Shown: one piece after another, positions 35,391 through 44,939 of the stretch
Numbering within the stretch: the stretch's first letter is position 1
Layout of the letters: each line of letters starts with the position of its first letter
Position numbers and translations under genes: made by a program
Notes under the pieces: generated by a model
What the model was told of the DNA's origin: nothing
The model's input: only the letters and a program-made list of their open reading frames with translations
Database searches by the model: none
Assembly (NCBI RefSeq): GCF_034480035.2
Contig: NZ_CP118753.2
Coordinates: 1,397,426-1,461,425, forward strand
Direction of reading: 5' to 3'
From: Methanosphaera sp. ISO3-F5
Lineage (GTDB): Archaea; Methanobacteriota; Methanobacteria; Methanobacteriales; Methanobacteriaceae
DNA: 64,000 nucleotides

Positions 35391-36806
35391 TTAATCTATA
35401 CGTCCATATAAATCTATAATTTCTTCTAAGCCAACACCATCTTCCAATAATTCCAACATATGTTTTGCAGGGTTTGTATGATTATAAACTCTTTCATATA
35501 ATGAGTCTAGGAATTTTTCCTCACCATACCCTCTTTTTTCCAGTCCCTCCCTTGAAAGATCCAATACTTGTTCTATTAATGCATACAATTTGTCTTCATC
35601 AACAAAACTTGGAAGTTCACGATACAAAAAGAGTTTACGCAATTCCGTAGCATTGTAGCCATGATGGTATATGACTTCATCAGCTTCAAGCAGTGCGACA
35701 AGTTTTTCAAGGTTATGTTTTAATCCTAACTGAAATGCTCCTACTGTCATAACATCACGTATTGGCTGTGTGCAGGCACTACGATATTCTATTGTCCCCC
35801 TGTATGTTAAATCAAGGAATTTGAATGACCTGAGATACTTGATATCATCCAGTTCTGGTGTGAACTCTACTTCATCATATTTTCCCTTGTCACAGAATTC
35901 ACCATGTATCCGGTCTTGACTGAAATAGTCCATGATATTTATTGTTGGGAAGTTAATATAGTATCCTTCCCTCATTGTACAGTATATGTTTAATGATTCT
36001 ATATATCTTATCAGATCATCCAGGTCTTTTAGTTCTGTTTCATACATTCCAATGTTATGTGGATTGATTCCATGAGTACTGTCCTGCCAGAAGTTATCTC
36101 TACAGCATAATAAGTTTGTATCCTCTTCGAGTAGTACAGAGTTTGAAAATATTACTGCCTTTAATGGTTCTAGTTTGCTGAATGTGTTTATTGTTTTTAT
36201 AAGATTCTTTTTTTCAACATCTAATTGTATCTGGGATGCACTTGAGAACATTCCATATTCCGGGTGATCATGGAAGTATTTTGGTAATTTTGAATATTTT
36301 GAGTATGAGCATAGATGATGATATAACATTTGGTATCTTTCGCTTGGTATTGGGATGTGTTTATTGTATTTCCTATAGGGGTTTATTCCTATGCCTGTTA
36401 GTGTATGGTTGTATTTTTCAAATGTTTCTTTAAAGAATTGGTAGTACGTCTTGAATCTTTCATGTACGTTTATTAGGCTTGTTTCTTTGCCTATTGAAAA
36501 TTCAAGGTTGTTATATGAGCAGTCATAGGATACTATGTCGCCTGTCTGTTTGTCTATCAGTGAGCAGGCGTGCCCGTTATGGTCAATGACATTAAAATTG
36601 AATTGTTGAAATTTTTTAAGAAATTCTGCTGTTACTTTGTGTACTATTGTAAAGTTTACTGCTTTTTTTTCTAAGTTTACTATTGGTATTTCCACTTCTA
36701 CTCCTACAAAGTCCTTGTAACCTTCTGTTGTTGGTTTTATGAATCTGTCATATAAGCGTTTTTTTATAGTTTTTTCACTGATGGTTGAGTGAGTATTCTT
36801 TTGCAT
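35391..36806 (-). CDS. Glutamate-cysteine ligase-like enzyme (GCS2/EgtA-like)
   Basis: ATP-dependent carboxylate-amine ligase of the gamma-glutamylcysteine synthetase superfamily, 471 aa. Signatures: the metal-binding G-V-E-V-E-I-P near residue 35, N-N-L-E-F-S-I, and the late E-Y-R-S-A-C-T-Q-P that is typical for the family. It would join the gamma-carboxyl of glutamate to an amine such as cysteine; the real acceptor is unknown. Its first 32 bp overlap the end of the upstream class II amidohydrolase gene, with GGTGAT as ribosome site inside the overlap, so the two products are made together. The same pairing (EgtA with EgtC) is known from ergothioneine synthesis, but no other egt gene is in this window. 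Confidence 0.75.
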   Translation of the reverse strand: MQKNTHSTISEKTIKKRLYDRFIKPTTEGYKDFVGVEVEIPIVNLEKKAVNFTIVHKVTAEFLKKFQQFNFNVIDHNGHACSLIDKQTGDIVSYDCSYNNLEFSIGKETSLINVHERFKTYYQFFKETFEKYNHTLTGIGINPYRKYNKHIPIPSERYQMLYHHLCSYSKYSKLPKYFHDHPEYGMFSSASQIQLDVEKKNLIKTINTFSKLEPLKAVIFSNSVLLEEDTNLLCCRDNFWQDSTHGINPHNIGMYETELKDLDDLIRYIESLNIYCTMREGYYINFPTINIMDYFSQDRIHGEFCDKGKYDEVEFTPELDDIKYLRSFKFLDLTYRGTIEYRSACTQPIRDVMTVGAFQLGLKHNLEKLVALLEADEVIYHHGYNATELRKLFLYRELPSFVDEDKLYALIEQVLDLSREGLEKRGYGEEKFLDSLYERVYNHTNPAKHMLELLEDGVGLEEIIDLYGRID

Positions 36807-37617
36807 AGTTTAAATCACCAAATTTTTCTATTAATTTATTTTTCATTTCTTCTGACATGTGATCTACTATATAATCGAAATGTTCTCCGGTTATTCTGTA
36901 TTCATGGTTATGTGTTCGGCCTCTTTTGTATATTTCTCCGTTTTTTAATGAGATTACTTTGTTTATTGGAAATTCTTTCCAGTTTTCTTTGCTTAGTGGT
37001 CTGGTTGATATGAATATGCTGTCATGTGCTTGTAGGTAGTATAATGATTGTTTATAGTTTGCATGAACATACATGAATTCTCCATTGAATAGCATTAGGT
37101 TTAATTTGTTTCCTTCTGATAGGTCTCTGATTATTCCTTCGATGAAGTTAAAGCATTCATCACTGTTTAGTGGTGCATTTTTTGCATCTTGTGCTTCGTT
37201 TATTTTGTCTATGATGAATAGTAGTATTCTTTCTGAGTCTGTTTCTCCTAGTTGTTGGGATATGTACCTGTTTAGTGGTTCGTAGTTGAATATTGTTCCG
37301 TTATGTATTAGTGTCCATGTTCTGCCTGAGTTATCAATTTTAGAAAAGGGATGACAATTGAATGAATCCATGTAGCCCATTGTTGCTAGTCGTATGTGTG
37401 CGAATGCATGTTCTACTATGATTGGTTTTTCTAGTATTTGTTGTAGTTCTTTGCTTTGAGATGCTTTAATTGGTTGTTTTTCTATTATTAACTGGTTTTG
37501 TTGCATTATTGCTAATCCCCATCCATGTGGGTGTTGTTCGCAGTGGCTGTAGAATTGGTTTAGGTAGTCGTTTATTCTGATGCATCTTTTTGATGTTATT
37601 CCGAATAATTCACACAT
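36775..37617 (-). CDS. Class II glutamine amidotransferase (EgtC/YafJ-like)
   Basis: N-terminal-nucleophile amidohydrolase, 280 aa. Cys2 directly after the start Met is the nucleophile (M-C-E-L-F-G-I). Further signatures are H-P-H-G-W-G-L-A-I, A-F-A-H-I-R-L-A-T-M-G, H-N-G-T-I-F-N-Y and T-D-S-E-R. There is no synthase domain, so it should act as a stand-alone amidase on gamma-glutamyl amides, as EgtC does, or supply ammonia to a partner. A strong GGAGGTGA ribosome site lies 5 nt before ATG 37617. Its end overlaps the ligase gene, which argues for one pathway. The 290 bp upstream hold no clear gene. Confidence 0.8.
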   Translation of the reverse strand: MCELFGITSKRCIRINDYLNQFYSHCEQHPHGWGLAIMQQNQLIIEKQPIKASQSKELQQILEKPIIVEHAFAHIRLATMGYMDSFNCHPFSKIDNSGRTWTLIHNGTIFNYEPLNRYISQQLGETDSERILLFIIDKINEAQDAKNAPLNSDECFNFIEGIIRDLSEGNKLNLMLFNGEFMYVHANYKQSLYYLQAHDSIFISTRPLSKENWKEFPINKVISLKNGEIYKRGRTHNHEYRITGEHFDYIVDHMSEEMKNKLIEKFGDLNYAKEYSLNHQ

Positions 37618-37904: not shown

Positions 37905-38312
37905 TTAACTTAAAAAATCCTTAACAAAATTAATAAAATCTTGAATATCCCCATCATCAGGCCTGCCAGCATTCATACCAACAAAACTACCCGGACAATG
38001 AAACTCACAATCAGACAAAGAAATACTAGTATTCTCCAAAACATCAGAAATCAGCAAATAATTAGACTCCATAATCCCAGAAGTCGAAAAATTAACAAAA
38101 CTTCCAACACGAACACCAATATTACTAATAAAAGATATGACACCCGGATCCAGTGAAGAACCATAAACACCAGAACCAAAGAATAACACATCAACATCCT
38201 CAGTCAAATCATGAGAAATATCAAGAGCAGGAACATTCAAATAATCCGAAAGAGCATCCGCCAAACGTTTAGTATTACCAGACTTAGAATAATATCTTAT
38301 AGCATACTTCAT
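37905..38312 (-). CDS. Short flavodoxin-like protein
   Basis: 135-residue flavodoxin-fold protein. The FMN phosphate loop Y-Y-S-K-S-G-N-T-K-R-L-A follows the first strand, and F-F-G-S-G-V-Y-G supplies the second FMN contact. It is near the short end for flavodoxins. Its ATG shares a base with the stop of the glutathione-peroxidase-like gene (TAATG), so the two are translationally coupled. It may deliver electrons to the peroxidase or to a thiol reductase (inference). Confidence 0.8.
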   Translation of the reverse strand: MKYAIRYYSKSGNTKRLADALSDYLNVPALDISHDLTEDVDVLFFGSGVYGSSLDPGVISFISNIGVRVGSFVNFSTSGIMESNYLLISDVLENTSISLSDCEFHCPGSFVGMNAGRPDDGDIQDFINFVKDFLS

Positions 38313-38857
38313 TATAATAACTCACGTATTTTCTCTTTAACAATACCTAAATCCTTGGTTGGTTCAAATCTTTCAACAACATTACCCTCACGGTCAACTA
38401 AAAACTTAGTGAAATTCCATTTAATATCACTATTATTCATATAATCAGGGTCAATCTTGGAAACAACATCCTCAATAACACCTGCTAACTCATGATCAGA
38501 ATCAAATCCTTCAAAAGATTTCTCACTCTTCAAGTAAGTGAATAATGGATCTTCATCACTGCCATTGACATTAATCTTCTCAAAGATAGGATACTCAACT
38601 AGAAACTTAAGACGACAGGCCTTCTTAATCTCCTCACCAGTACCTGGAGCCTGGTTACCAAACTGGTTACAAGGAAAATCAAGAATAACAAAACCATCAT
38701 TCTTAAACTCATCATAAATATCTGCTAACTCATTATACTGTGGAGTGAAACCACATTCAGTTGCTGAATTAACAATTAATAAAACATTTCCTTCATAATC
38801 TGATAATGAAACATCATTACCTTCTGTATCTTTAACTGTATAATCATAAATTGACAT
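38312..38857 (-). CDS. Glutathione peroxidase family thiol peroxidase
   Basis: Reduces hydrogen peroxide or organic hydroperoxides with electrons from a thiol donor; members with two working cysteines normally use thioredoxin rather than glutathione. Peroxidatic Cys35 sits in S-A-T-E-C-G-F-T, Gln65 in F-P-C-N-Q-F-G-N-Q, and Trp147-Asn148 in W-N-F-T-K-F, completing the catalytic tetrad. Cys81 is in place for the resolving cysteine. 181 aa is full length. The family is mainly bacterial and eukaryotic, so this copy was probably acquired by transfer (inference). AGGAG lies 11 nt before the ATG. Confidence 0.92.
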   Translation of the reverse strand: MSIYDYTVKDTEGNDVSLSDYEGNVLLIVNSATECGFTPQYNELADIYDEFKNDGFVILDFPCNQFGNQAPGTGEEIKKACRLKFLVEYPIFEKINVNGSDEDPLFTYLKSEKSFEGFDSDHELAGVIEDVVSKIDPDYMNNSDIKWNFTKFLVDREGNVVERFEPTKDLGIVKEKIRELL

Positions 38858-39031: not shown

Positions 39032-40132
39032 TCAATCACTTATATCATAATCATCCACTATAATAAATTTATATTCAGGGTATTTATCATATAGTTTTTC
39101 AAGAACTTCTTCTTTTATTTGTTCACGATTTGCATTAAAATCAACTATCAAATCAAAACTAACAATATTTTTTTCATCATATACATAGAACCCATGCATT
39201 TGTAATACTTCAGGGTATTCGCTTAACAAAGACTCAAGATAAGAACGAATCTCAGCAAACTCCTCCACAGAATCATTAGTCGCATAAATACCAACAGTCA
39301 AAGCAATACCAAAGTTCTCATAAACCGCCGACCTAATCCTAAAAGTCAAAGCATGAATCTCCTTAGCAGTTAAATAATCATCAATCTCAATATGGACACT
39401 ACCCACAGTATCCTCAGGACCATAATTATGCAAAGCAAGATCATAAGCCCCATAAACACCATCAAAAGACTCAACTTCCTCCTTAATCTTACGAGACAAG
39501 TCCGAATCCACACGAGACCCAATCATACTATTAATAGTTTCCTGCAACATTTCAATACTAGCCTTAATAATAACAAATGAAATGATAACACCAAGAATAC
39601 CCTCCAAACTAATATGCCACACCAAACTAATAATAGCAGCAACCAAAGTTGATAAAGAAAGAATAGAATCAAAGAAAGCATCACTACCAGATGCAACCAA
39701 TGCCTGAGAATTAATATCTTCTCCAACACCCTTCACATAACGACCTAAAACAAACTTAACAACAACTGCTACCGCAACAATAACAAGAGAAACCGTAGTA
39801 TAACTTGTTACATCAGGCACGAAAATCTTAGGAAAAGATTCCTGTAAAGACGTGATACCTGCCCATAAAACTATAACAGCAATAATTACTGATGAAAAAT
39901 ATTCTATCCTACCATAACCATAAGGATGATTCTTATCAGGAGGACGACTAGCAAGCTTAGCCCCAATGATAGTAATAATAGAACTTAATGCATCAGTCAA
40001 GTTATTAACCGCATCCAACGTAATAGCAATAGAATTAACCAAAATTCCAATAGTTGCCTTAAATGCTACAAGTACTAGGTTAACAACAATGCCAACAATA
40101 CTTGTTTGAATAATCTTTTTCTGCCTATCCAT
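39032..40132 (-). CDS. Cation diffusion facilitator (CDF) family metal exporter
   Basis: Membrane antiporter for divalent metal ions, 366 aa, with about six membrane segments and a C-terminal cytoplasmic domain. Helix 2 reads N43-x3-D47 (D-A-V-N-N-L-T-D) and helix 5 D-x3-D (S-D-A-F-F-D). The transport site therefore has no histidine, which in this family speaks for Mn or Fe rather than Zn. R-P-P-D-K-N-H-P-Y-G-Y-G-R-I-E-Y is the CDF loop signature. The tail is extended by a second ferredoxin-like stretch after the first. AGGTGA lies shortly before ATG 40132. It is a single gene 45 bp downstream of the sirtuin gene. Confidence 0.88.
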   Translation of the reverse strand: MDRQKKIIQTSIVGIVVNLVLVAFKATIGILVNSIAITLDAVNNLTDALSSIITIIGAKLASRPPDKNHPYGYGRIEYFSSVIIAVIVLWAGITSLQESFPKIFVPDVTSYTTVSLVIVAVAVVVKFVLGRYVKGVGEDINSQALVASGSDAFFDSILSLSTLVAAIISLVWHISLEGILGVIISFVIIKASIEMLQETINSMIGSRVDSDLSRKIKEEVESFDGVYGAYDLALHNYGPEDTVGSVHIEIDDYLTAKEIHALTFRIRSAVYENFGIALTVGIYATNDSVEEFAEIRSYLESLLSEYPEVLQMHGFYVYDEKNIVSFDLIVDFNANREQIKEEVLEKLYDKYPEYKFIIVDDYDISD

Positions 40133-40177: not shown

Positions 40178-41104
40178 TTAAACTTGAATCATTCTAATTA
40201 ATTCATCTAACACTTCCTCCACATCAGCACCGACAGGAATATAACGATTAATAAAATCATTAGGCAAATCATATTCCAATAACTTTTCCGGAGGAACTAA
40301 CCTGTACGTTTTATGAACATTAACCGCCACTTCCAGGAAATCCTTATTAAAACGTACAAGATTCCACTTAGGTAACTGAAATGTCATCGTCTCAAATGGA
40401 AACCTTATTATCCCCGGAGTATTATATCCTATTCCAAACTCCAATAACAAAGTCTTCGAGTCTTTCGCTTTATTGACAAATTCCTGATATGCCTTTTTTT
40501 GTAAATGCCAATGCTTGTCTTCAACAAAATAATTATCTACCCTGAGGTTTGTCTCCTGTGGCTGACCACACACTGGACAGTACGGAACTAATTGGCTTGG
40601 TATCTTCAATTCTTCATCCGTGCTTTCAACCATCTGCTTTACTATTTCAGTATTATCATATAACTTATCATGACATGCTTTACTACACTGAAAATACCTG
40701 TAACTTCCCTGTGTTGCAAATACATTATATGATGGAAATCCTGATTTAATAAACTGGTCATCAACATTAGTTGTAATTACAAAGTATTCCTTGTCTTTAA
40801 CTAATTCATATATTTTCTTGTATAATGGTAATCCTTCTACAAGTTCCTCATTAACGTATATCTGTTTTGCCCAGTACCCCCACTTTTCTTCTAGTGTTTC
40901 AAATGGATAGAATCCACCAGTGTACATGTCTGTCATATCATACTTTTTCATGTATTCACTGAAATATTTTTTAAATCGTTCCCCCGAATATGTTAGTCCA
41001 GCAGCTGTTGATAATCCTGCCCCTGCACCTATTAGTATATATTCTGAGTCTTCCAGTAGTTGTTTAATTTCTTCTATACGTTCTGATAGTTTTTTCATAT
41101 ACAT
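40178..41104 (-). CDS. Class M sirtuin (SirTM), likely protein ADP-ribosyltransferase
   Basis: NAD-dependent Sir2-fold enzyme, about 308 aa. NAD loop G-A-G-A-G-L-S-T-A-A-G at 26-36; T-T-N-V-D-D-Q-F at 111-118 replaces the deacetylase T-Q-N-x-D; Gln132 (A-T-Q-G) stands where deacetylases have the catalytic His. The zinc site is C140-x3-C144 and C176-x2-C179. Asn113, Gln132 and Arg188 match in spacing the Asn/Gln/Arg set described for class M sirtuins, which ADP-ribosylate a lipoyl carrier protein in some bacteria. It overlaps the macrodomain gene by 41 bp, the hallmark gene pair of this system. ATG 41104 was chosen because GATGAT lies 4 nt upstream. No GcvH-like or lipoate ligase gene is in the window. 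Confidence 0.85.
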   Translation of the reverse strand: MYMKKLSERIEEIKQLLEDSEYILIGAGAGLSTAAGLTYSGERFKKYFSEYMKKYDMTDMYTGGFYPFETLEEKWGYWAKQIYVNEELVEGLPLYKKIYELVKDKEYFVITTNVDDQFIKSGFPSYNVFATQGSYRYFQCSKACHDKLYDNTEIVKQMVESTDEELKIPSQLVPYCPVCGQPQETNLRVDNYFVEDKHWHLQKKAYQEFVNKAKDSKTLLLEFGIGYNTPGIIRFPFETMTFQLPKWNLVRFNKDFLEVAVNVHKTYRLVPPEKLLEYDLPNDFINRYIPVGADVEEVLDELIRMIQV

Positions 41105-41888
41105 TTTTATCATCATCTGAATATACGTTGAATACTATTTTTTCAAAGGAACTATCCTGTTCCATGAATTTGTCAACTGTTTTTATTGCTATTTGGCTTG
41201 CCATGTCTTTTGGAAATCGGAATTCCCCCGTGGATATTGAGCAAAATGCCACTGTTTTTATATCGTTTTGTTTTGCCTGATTTAAAACATTAGTGTAACA
41301 GTTTGCTAGTTGTTGTTTCTGTTTTTCTGTTACCTTTGATGTTATGATTGGTCCTACTGTGTGTATTACGTGTTGTGCTGGTAGGTTATATGCTTTGGTT
41401 GTGAATGCTTCTCCTGTTGGCAGGTTGTAATTGATTGTTTTCATGTGTTTGTCACATTCTAGTCTTAGTCTTACTCCCGCATACGTGTTAATCTGATTGT
41501 CTATACAGTTATGGCATGGTACGAAGCATCCTAGTCCCTGTGAGTTTGCTGCATTTACTATTGCCCCTATTTGCAGTGTGGTTATGTCTCCCTGCCATAA
41601 TGCTATTTTGTTCTTGTTTTCTATATTGCACTCAGAGTGTGTTGTAGATACTGTGTCTATTTCGTTTATGCTTGTTGTTTTTTTTGTTTTTTCCAGTACT
41701 TCCTGTAGTAGTTTGTCTTCTTGTTGCAGGTATTCCTGTGTTATGGGCTTTGCTTGTCTGATGTTTGTTAGGCTTCTGTATATTGTGAATTTTTCTTGGA
41801 AGTTTTCTGGTTGTTTTCTTATTTTTATGTCTTGATTTTCATCTAAGAGGTATTTGATTAGGTAGTCTATTGTTTGCATTTTAATCAT
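41064..41888 (-). CDS. Zinc-type macrodomain protein (ADP-ribosyl hydrolase)
   Basis: Macrodomain protein of the type linked to SirTM, 274 aa. An N-terminal helical part of about 90 residues precedes the macro fold. Key stretches: W-Q-G-D-I-T (98-103), V-N-A-A-N (111-115), G-C-F-V-P-C-H-N-C-I-D (120-130, the Cys/His-rich zinc loop of this subclass), T-G-E-A (158-161) and H-V-I-H-T-V-G-P. It is expected to bind ADP-ribose and remove it from the protein modified by the neighbouring sirtuin. The start is ATG 41888 or ATG 41879; neither has a clear ribosome site. The sirtuin gene starts inside its 3' end. Confidence 0.88.
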   Translation of the reverse strand: MIKMQTIDYLIKYLLDENQDIKIRKQPENFQEKFTIYRSLTNIRQAKPITQEYLQQEDKLLQEVLEKTKKTTSINEIDTVSTTHSECNIENKNKIALWQGDITTLQIGAIVNAANSQGLGCFVPCHNCIDNQINTYAGVRLRLECDKHMKTINYNLPTGEAFTTKAYNLPAQHVIHTVGPIITSKVTEKQKQQLANCYTNVLNQAKQNDIKTVAFCSISTGEFRFPKDMASQIAIKTVDKFMEQDSSFEKIVFNVYSDDDKNVYEKTIRTYRRN

Positions 41889-41946: not shown

Positions 41947-42768
41947 TTATATTAGGGATAACCAGTTTTGTATTACTTCTTCGTTATCATCCATTAGTTG
42001 TCGAACCTTTTTAAAGTAGGTTCCATCGTTTAATGATTCATCTTTTGCTCTTTTTGTTACACAGTCATATTTTTCGTTATCTTCTCGTAGTGGTAGGCTT
42101 ATCATGTTATAATTGTTTACTTGTTCATCGTCCATGTTCTCTTCGTCATAGTCTTGTTCCACGTCTGTTGCTGCTAATCCTACTACTGCGCATAGGTCAA
42201 GATCGTATACTAGTGACATTTTATTGTAACATTTTAGTCCGGTTGTGTCAAAGTCTTCTCTTAATGTTCCTTTCATTACTTCTTCAACAGAAAACATTGG
42301 CACAATGAATGGTATTCTTGATACTAAAAATCTATCATTGAAAACTCGTGCTAACTTAAACTTGATTAAGGATTCTACCATGTCTTTTGTAGGATATTCT
42401 AGGAATATGCTTGACTCGAAGAGTGTTGATGCTTCATCTATCTCCTCGGTTAGGTAGATTTTATCCCTGTATTCTGGTAGAACATAGAAGTATTGCATGA
42501 CAAGTGCATCCTTATTTATGCTGGTGTTTTTGAATGTTGTGAAGCCTACTACTTCGTTATCATATACTACGTCTTTGTAGAAGAAGCATGAATCGTTTGG
42601 TGCAATATAGTATCCTTCATCTTTTATTGCACGGTACAGGTAGATGTAATTTTCTTTGACAAGTTCTAGAATTGGTAGTGTGAATATTTTTCCGTCTTCA
42701 TCTGTTCTGTAGTTATAAACATTTCCTAAACCATTTGGTCTTTTTACTTTCTTATTAGGATTAACCAT
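41947..42768 (-). CDS. Hypothetical protein with GNAT-like middle part
   Basis: 273-residue soluble protein. V-V-G-F-T-T-F...A-L-V-M-Q-Y-F-Y-V-L-P-E-Y-R-D-K (about residues 75-110) looks like the central strands and pyrophosphate-loop region of a GNAT acetyltransferase, but the Q/R-x-x-G-x-G/A signature is not clear, so this stays tentative. The C-terminal third is acidic. GGAG lies 9 nt before ATG 42768, hence the choice over the first in-frame ATG at 42783. It is 58 bp upstream of the macrodomain gene on the same strand and may share its transcript. Confidence 0.6.
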   Translation of the reverse strand: MVNPNKKVKRPNGLGNVYNYRTDEDGKIFTLPILELVKENYIYLYRAIKDEGYYIAPNDSCFFYKDVVYDNEVVGFTTFKNTSINKDALVMQYFYVLPEYRDKIYLTEEIDEASTLFESSIFLEYPTKDMVESLIKFKLARVFNDRFLVSRIPFIVPMFSVEEVMKGTLREDFDTTGLKCYNKMSLVYDLDLCAVVGLAATDVEQDYDEENMDDEQVNNYNMISLPLREDNEKYDCVTKRAKDESLNDGTYFKKVRQLMDDNEEVIQNWLSLI

Positions 42769-42888
42769 AATAATATGCTCCATTGTATTATTTAATTATT
42801 CTAATTATTATTTATCTTTTTTAAGACTAAAAAAAGTTTTTAAAAAATATAATCAATAAATTCTCATTATCTATAAGGAAGGTTTTAA

Positions 42889-43808: not shown

Positions 43809-44939
43809 CTAGAAATATTTACTTTCAGAAAGCATTTGGAAGTCGTTTTTTGTATCAACACAGTAATGTATGATTAGGCCAGATAATAGTACAATTAATG
43901 AAGTGGCTTTATGCATGGATTCAAATGTATATTTGTGTAAATGTTTAAAACCTAATCCTTCTTTGATGAATTTGAAATAATCTTCAATTATGCTACGTTT
44001 ATACTTTATTACTTTTCTATTTGGTAAATTAGCCATTAATTCGTTCACTAACTTTTTATATTCTCTTTTTAATTTATTTGTATTTCTTTTATTGTAAAAA
44101 TAGTCTAATGGATAACTGAATATTGAATTCATTTTTTTCATGTTGAGTTTTCCTTTAACTAGAATCAATGGTATTATTTTATAGGTTTTTAATGCTATTT
44201 TGTAATTGTAATATGAGTAATAACCTCTATCAAGTAGTATTTTATCTCCAGTACTGATTAATTTTATTCTTTTTAATTCTTTTAGTATTAATGGTACCAT
44301 TTTTGTATCATGAGGTGAACCACTACTTAATAAAAATAAAACAGGCATTTTAGTATCATAATCAAGTACAAGTGTTATTTTAAAACCAAGATACCATCCC
44401 AAAGCAGTTCCCCATGCCCATTTATAGTCTCTATCTTCGATTGATTTCTTGGTGACTTTTTTAGATCCAAAATTAATATCTGTATCAGCAGAAGAACCAT
44501 CAACGATTAAAGTCCTATTTTTACTTTTATAACCTTTATTAATCTTTTTAAGAATACTATTAATGGCATTTTGAAGATTATCCTTATTACAACTAGATAT
44601 CTCCTCATATACTTCTTGGGCAGTTAATAACATTTCAAAATTTAAACCTTCTACAAGCTTAAATTTATTAAATAATTCGTTAACTGTAAAAGATACATCA
44701 TTTTCAAAGAATGATGATAAAAAAATAGTTTTAATTGCTGTTTTGAATCTTTTTATTCTTTTAAATCCATTTCTAGCTAGAATATTGTCAGTTGATCTAT
44801 AATCGATAACATCAAATATTTTGTTCAACAACATGTAATTAGGGTCTTGTTCATCGTAATTTAATCCATGTATCATTAGTATAGCCAATACTATATATAT
44901 ATTATGGGTTATATATAAATAGTACGATGAATAACCCAT
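43809..44939 (-). CDS. IS transposase, DDE (IS4-like) type
   Basis: 376-residue transposase. Catalytic acids are recognisable in L-I-V-D-G-S-S-A-D-T-D (first Asp), K-I-L-L-D-R-G-Y-Y-S (second Asp) and the Y-R-S-I-I-E-D-Y-F-K-F-I-K-E-G helix (Glu), matching the IS4-type order. It cuts and joins the element ends. No frameshift is visible, so the copy may be active. The ATG at 44939 lies in one arm of an 11-bp inverted repeat; a later start near L-M-I-H-G-L-N-Y-D-E-Q-D is also possible and would match the conserved part better. Confidence 0.88.
   Translation of the reverse strand: MGYSSYYLYITHNIYIVLAILMIHGLNYDEQDPNYMLLNKIFDVIDYRSTDNILARNGFKRIKRFKTAIKTIFLSSFFENDVSFTVNELFNKFKLVEGLNFEMLLTAQEVYEEISSCNKDNLQNAINSILKKINKGYKSKNRTLIVDGSSADTDINFGSKKVTKKSIEDRDYKWAWGTALGWYLGFKITLVLDYDTKMPVLFLLSSGSPHDTKMVPLILKELKRIKLISTGDKILLDRGYYSYYNYKIALKTYKIIPLILVKGKLNMKKMNSIFSYPLDYFYNKRNTNKLKREYKKLVNELMANLPNRKVIKYKRSIIEDYFKFIKEGLGFKHLHKYTFESMHKATSLIVLLSGLIIHYCVDTKNDFQMLSESKYF

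Follow-up and report, generated by a model that had tools for sequence, protein, structure and literature searches.

A sirtuin gene of class M (SirTM) overlaps the gene of a zinc-dependent macrodomain (Zn-Macro) in a 64,000-nucleotide stretch of Methanosphaera sp. ISO3-F5 (the window). Lipoylated GcvH-L is the only proven target of SirTM (PMC11490716), and neither a GcvH-like protein nor a lipoate ligase is encoded beside this archaeal pair. The locus therefore raises the question of which protein the two enzymes would modify and demodify.

The SirTM/Zn-Macro pair of the window

The sirtuin gene (40178 to 41116, minus strand) encodes 312 amino acids from its longest start, with codons 5 and 7-8 as further probable starts. 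Its product matched SpySirTM (5a3a) with an E value of 1.5e-53, and its match to the general SIR2 model (E=7e-4) fell below the cut-off. In the alignment with SpySirTM, N117, Q136 (of the QG motif, Q136-G137), and R192 are invariant, as are the zinc-ribbon cysteines C144, C148, C180, and C183. The first three correspond to the class M set that a first-pass annotation of this DNA had read as Asn113, Gln132, and Arg188; its numbers count from a start four codons later than that of the longest open reading frame (ORF), and the residue set itself was borne out. That annotation had also proposed a tree with class M references as a check. In our tree of 83 sirtuins, a branch with 100% SH-aLRT support separated SirTMs, including the window sirtuin, from canonical sirtuins, the canonical side consisting of archaeal, A. 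fulgidus, and T. maritima sequences, with human sirtuins of classes I to IV left out. Membership of the window sirtuin in class M is confirmed, and we predict from its sequence that it is a mono-ADP-ribosyltransferase.

The macrodomain gene (41064 to 41888, minus strand; 274 amino acids) is transcribed first, and the two ORFs overlap, as the annotation had it, by 53 nucleotides if the longest sirtuin start is taken. The macrodomain matched the NCBIfam model NF003163 (protein-ADP-ribose hydrolase) at 305 bits against a cut-off of 272, and all solved Zn-Macros matched it, with E values down to 1e-59 for those labeled Sau, Mor, and Spy (best matches: 5kiv, 8rsl, 8rsi, and 8rsm). Its zinc loop, GCFVPCHNCIDN, reads G-C121-F-V-P-C125-H126-N-C128-I-D-N and contains the C-F-V-P-C-H-N-C loop claimed earlier. 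Alignment with solved Zn-Macros identified C121, H126, and C128 as the zinc ligands (C121-x4-H126-x-C128), while C125 is an additional cysteine absent from other members. The protein thus falls among the Zn-Macros, with a predicted capacity to hydrolyze Asp/Glu-ADP-ribose. Judged by these features, the SirTM/Zn-Macro pair of the window is genuine, well formed, and of the minimal type already known.

That type was described in 2024 as a minimal operon holding only SirTM and Zn-Macro, and the structure of MorMacro from Methanobrevibacter oralis has been solved (PDB 8rsi-8rsk; PMC11490716). MorMacro strips Glu/Asp-ADP-ribose from PARP1 E988Q but leaves GcvH-L modified (PMC11490716). One of our archaeal loci (L054), which holds the same kind of minimal pair, encodes a Zn-Macro 100% identical in sequence to 8rsi. 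Since the minimal archaeal operon is already published and its solved macrodomain is that of L054, the window pair adds another member to a known kind. An archaeal pair without lipoyl partners had been presented as surprising; the pair itself stands, and the surprise is weakened by the published operon, the crystal structure, and the lack of GcvH-L demodification.

The M. oralis and Methanosphaera pairs share a two-gene layout without GcvH-L or LplA, the zinc loop, the gene order, and the archaeal family, with 41% identity between the macrodomains. They differ in their surroundings: a divergent HxlR gene and other flanks adjoin the pair in L054, whereas the Methanosphaera locus lies within a peroxidase/flavodoxin/CDF block. 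The extended operons of Streptococcus pyogenes and Staphylococcus aureus (PMC4518038) have the class M Asn, Gln, and Arg and a zinc macrodomain hydrolase in common with the window. The fungal Mfs1 protein (8rsn) fuses homologues of both domains, whereas the window has a gene for each, the two overlapping. Gut Clostridia, Bacilli, and Treponema (L098 to L176) have minimal pairs of the same make, but these, unlike the window pair, lie in redox operons of various kinds, and some of the operons include an ACGX-repeat peptide with its radical SAM enzyme.

Missing lipoyl system of the host and candidate targets of the pair

The host, a gut methanogen, has a genome of 2.68 Mb in two contigs, described as a chromosome and a megaplasmid (PMC11008217). 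Searches of the whole genome with GcvH and biotin/lipoyl models returned no GcvH above the cut-off. The sole lipoyl-type domain (PF00364) is an EAMKMEN biotin domain at the C terminus of a PycB-type protein, which is detectable with the GcvH model. A single protein of the BPL/LplA family is encoded in the whole genome, with no second LplA-like protein; its domains, including an N-terminal helix-turn-helix, suggest a BirA-like biotin ligase. For lipA (lipoyl synthase), the whole genome gave only a sub-threshold match. The extended operon comprises GcvH-L, LplA2, OYE, and LLM genes; in contrast, this genome lacks GcvH-L, LplA2, and the lipoyl pathway, and its one OYE-type flavoprotein is unlinked to the pair. 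The earlier observation that no GcvH-like, lipoate ligase, or oxidoreductase partner adjoins the pair therefore extends, for the first two, to the genome as a whole, and the search for GcvH-L and LplA2 homologues that had been suggested found neither, nor a GcvH-L/LplA operon elsewhere. With GcvH, LplA, and LipA all missing, GcvH-L is excluded as the target, in agreement with the proposal that the archaeal system acts on something else. Sampled SirTM/Zn-Macro pairs, archaeal ones included, mostly sit among genes other than those of GcvH-L, and a host without the whole lipoyl system is a clean place to seek a second SirTM target.

We regard it as likely that the two genes form a minimal writer/eraser pair that switches the activity of its target under redox or electrophile stress, the target not being GcvH-L and being unlikely to be the GNAT-like neighbor. 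With NAD+ as donor, SirTM would attach ADP-ribose to acidic residues in at least one cellular protein, and the zinc macrodomain encoded by the overlapping gene would hydrolyze the ester and remove the ADP-ribose; the enzyme activities and the zinc dependence are those reported in the literature on homologues. Target activity would thereby respond to redox or electrophile stress. We infer this trigger, as well as a target unlinked to the pair; a housekeeping or redox protein whose gene lies at another place in the genome is the probable candidate. Our own computations contribute family membership, intact catalytic residues, a conserved overlapping gene order, loss and gain as a unit, and the missing lipoyl system.

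In an improbable alternative, the pair would act on pyruvate carboxylase subunit B, whose biotinylated carrier domain would be the counterpart of lipoylated GcvH-L. Its biotin domain is the genome's only PF00364 match and, as noted, is visible to the GcvH model. The PycB gene is unlinked to the pair, however, and the pair is patchily distributed, whereas one would expect pyruvate carboxylase throughout these methanogens. A parallel exists in GcvH-L, which is a carrier of lipoyl type and is modified close to the prosthetic lysine (PMC4518038), but the inactivity of MorMacro on GcvH-L (PMC11490716) speaks against a carrier-domain target.

A little less probable is that the sirtuin is mainly a deacylase and that the macrodomain disposes of the O-acyl-ADP-ribose by-product. 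Deacylation by sirtuins yields O-acyl-ADP-ribose, which macrodomains hydrolyze, and the adjacency of the two genes could be read in this way; no canonical sirtuin was found in the host genome, which leaves the deacylase role vacant. Against this, the window sirtuin has Gln136 in place of the catalytic His and retains Arg192. SpySirTM, which shares both features, is without deacylase activity, and a Q-to-H mutation abolishes its transferase activity (PMC4518038). The class M position of the window sirtuin in the tree likewise opposes a deacylase role.

The GNAT-like neighbor and the Methanosphaera locus

The neighbors named in the first-pass annotation, a CDF exporter and a GNAT-like protein, are both present. 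The CDF cation exporter gene (39032 to 40132, minus strand; PF01545, E=1.5e-37; TIGR01297 above the cut-off) lies downstream of the pair and is optional, being missing beside it in about half of Methanosphaera. The GNAT-like protein (41947 to 42783, minus strand; 278 amino acids) had no Pfam match of its own; its ortholog in L041, with 62% identity, matched PF00583 above the cut-off (1.1e-5). Next in the block are a glutathione-peroxidase-family (GPx) gene (38312 to 38857, minus strand; PF00255, E=8e-41) and, overlapping it, a gene for a short flavodoxin-like protein (37905 to 38312, minus strand), which is conserved in the block and matched PF12724 below the cut-off (E=9.6e-5). The order conserved across Methanosphaera is abhydrolase-GNAT-[ZnMac-SirTM]-(CDF)-GPx-flavodoxin-amidotransferase. 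An IS4/IS5/IS982-like transposase (43809-44939) is encoded just upstream of the abhydrolase-GNAT-pair part. At the other end (35391-37617), near the peroxidase gene, a glutamate-cysteine-ligase-like gene (plant-type GCL; PDB 2gwc, E=1.5e-8) overlaps the gene of an EgtC-like class II amidotransferase; together these genes may possibly represent an unusual thiol pathway in a methanogen.

The GNAT-like protein had also been put forward as a possible target, that is, SirTM would modify the protein encoded directly upstream and the macrodomain would reverse the modification. We consider this quite unlikely. The GNAT-like gene lies on the same strand, 58 nucleotides upstream of the pair; it is syntenic in all pair-bearing Methanosphaera loci save where other genes intervene, and the Pfam match of its ortholog supports a GNAT protein. 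Yet six Methanosphaera genomes without SirTM and the macrodomain (G029, G042, G047, G066, G072, and G087) keep a GNAT ortholog with 53 to 81% identity, and pairs in at least three other genera (g4, g5, and g10) have none alongside. The apparent exception, contig 61 of a MAG labeled Methanobrevibacter olleyae SIG14 (G053; L035 / L126), is a Methanosphaera-type contig with the same layout as G051 and is most likely contamination. Other genes separate GNAT from the pair in L039, L040, and L041. The gene thus belongs to the locus and is no partner of the pair, and we rejected it as a dedicated target and judged it to lie outside the system. With regard to possible co-transcription of GNAT and the pair, several Methanosphaera loci have a short inverted repeat with a T-run between the two, and a related palindrome also occurs in the empty site described below; a terminator scan found nothing.

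In the pair-less genome G066 (L077), the same site reads abhydrolase-GNAT-116 nt-GPx-flavodoxin. This empty site shows the pair to be a unit, gained or lost together from an otherwise conserved locus.

Redox neighbors of the pair in relatives

Better leads to the target come from bacterial and other archaeal relatives than from the GNAT-like neighbor, which is unlikely to be one, although gene neighborhood is weak evidence for the function of the pair. HxlR or Rrf2 regulators, PNPOx-type flavoproteins, and nitroreductases recur beside the pair across relatives. In 73 bacterial loci, we compared the genes lying within 3 kb of SirTM with those at greater distance in each locus. PNPOx-type proteins (25 near versus 1 farther; P = 7e-9) and HxlR (22 versus 7; P = 3e-4) were enriched, with P values that overstate the effect, since the loci are not phylogenetically independent; with the cut made by gene count instead of distance, the HxlR enrichment was not significant (P = 0.11). 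Also enriched were the radical SAM enzyme of the ACGX system (11 versus 0), nitroreductase (11 versus 1), Rrf2 (10 versus 1), and DUF1848 (8 versus 1). Among archaeal loci outside Methanosphaera, an HxlR gene lay within 3 kb of SirTM in 25 of 32 and a PNPOx-type gene in 12 of 32, in several different arrangements, compared to 22 and 24, respectively, of the 73 bacterial loci. The archaeal counts are likewise not independent of phylogeny. No account of SirTM and HxlR together was found in the literature searched.

Methanosphaera loci have neither HxlR nor PNPOx near the pair. Because their peroxidase/flavodoxin block also occurs where the pair is missing, location alone ties the pair to redox functions in this genus. 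The suggestion that the pair serves redox stress is supported indirectly, by the recurrent redox neighbors in relatives and not by HxlR or PNPOx genes near the pair in Methanosphaera itself.

Conserved redox neighbors, above all the ACGX-peptide operons, offer concrete target candidates. An ACGX radical SAM cassette adjoins the pair in 11 of the 73 bacterial loci, with its genes upstream of SirTM (L105, L110, L120, L129, L147, L151, L154, L156, L157, L170, and L187). In 10 of these 11, the radical SAM gene is accompanied, just upstream, by a short ORF that repeats the unit (S/A)CGxACG; representatives exceeded the cut-offs of TIGR04340 (radical SAM, ACGX system) and TIGR04341 (ACGX-repeat peptide). 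A nitroreductase is usual in these operons and a PNPOx-ferredoxin protein frequent. On Roseburia plasmid p_831b, the order is acgA-acgM-nitroreductase-4Fe4S protein-ZnMac-SirTM-DUF1848, and both of the two close acgM matches on plasmids adjoin SirTM. Mapped on the SirTM tree, the ACGX label required seven changes for seven rows, so the association came and went or moved repeatedly. It is the sole lead for which no description was found in the literature searched, the type of pair itself being already known.

The ACGX peptide is a possible target or partner of SirTM, and that SirTM modifies it is speculation. A broader and tentative reading, less likely than not, treats the minimal pair as a portable cassette for regulation, coupled by gut anaerobes to redox carriers that differ but are of thiol or flavin type. 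The cysteine-rich ACGX peptide might, in some bacteria, take the role that lipoylated GcvH-L has in streptococci; in archaea, that role might fall to a flavoprotein of PNPOx type or to a redox protein not linked to the pair.

Hundreds of genomes of gut bacteria carry similar pairs. In the sirtuin tree, the window sequence grouped with other Methanosphaera; the next, looser grouping was with group g10 of Methanobrevibacter and with Clostridia and Bacilli of the gut. Its identity to the closest Clostridia (53 to 57%) exceeds that to group g4, which contains M. oralis (46 to 54%), and this suggests, from sequence comparison, transfer between gut bacteria and archaea; an AU test did not reject a single archaeal SirTM clade (P = 0.33). 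Patterns built from the window protein found no relative in viral contigs. Phages yielded only two weak unannotated records, and we rejected a viral origin of the pair.

Least probable of all is a phage-defense or toxin-antitoxin-like module, with toxic ADP-ribosylation and the macrodomain as antidote, which would suit the patchy distribution, the clean empty site, the plasmid copies of the pair in bacteria, and the overlap of writer and eraser genes as a module, but which is opposed by the redox character of the recurrent neighbors, by the lack of relatives in viral contigs, and by the toleration of an eraser without a writer, of the two on separate contigs, and of an orphan SirTM.

These variants bear on how firmly the two genes are coupled. 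ZnMac lay within four genes of SirTM in 65 of 78 scanned loci. One Methanosphaera genome (G054; L085:8237-9013) has a Zn-Macro without SirTM, adjoining CbiJ and a cation-ATPase-like gene, and another genome (G060) has SirTM and Zn-Macro on different contigs, so the tight coupling is not absolute. In L067 (7028-8994), an orphan SirTM that keeps the catalytic Asn, Gln, and Arg overlaps a TMEM175-like channel gene; Zn-Macro is not adjacent, and HxlR and PNPOx genes are nearby. Some g10 Methanobrevibacter genomes have a tandem second SirTM copy (L044:6662, L048:10603, L049:10009, and L094:1984). These copies are 77 to 95% identical among themselves and have the NAD motif AGGEYLS, Asn in place of Gln136, Thr in place of Arg192, and a deletion of the GxGxNTP stretch; given such degenerate NAD-binding and catalytic motifs, the second copy is probably a pseudo-enzyme and not a transferase.
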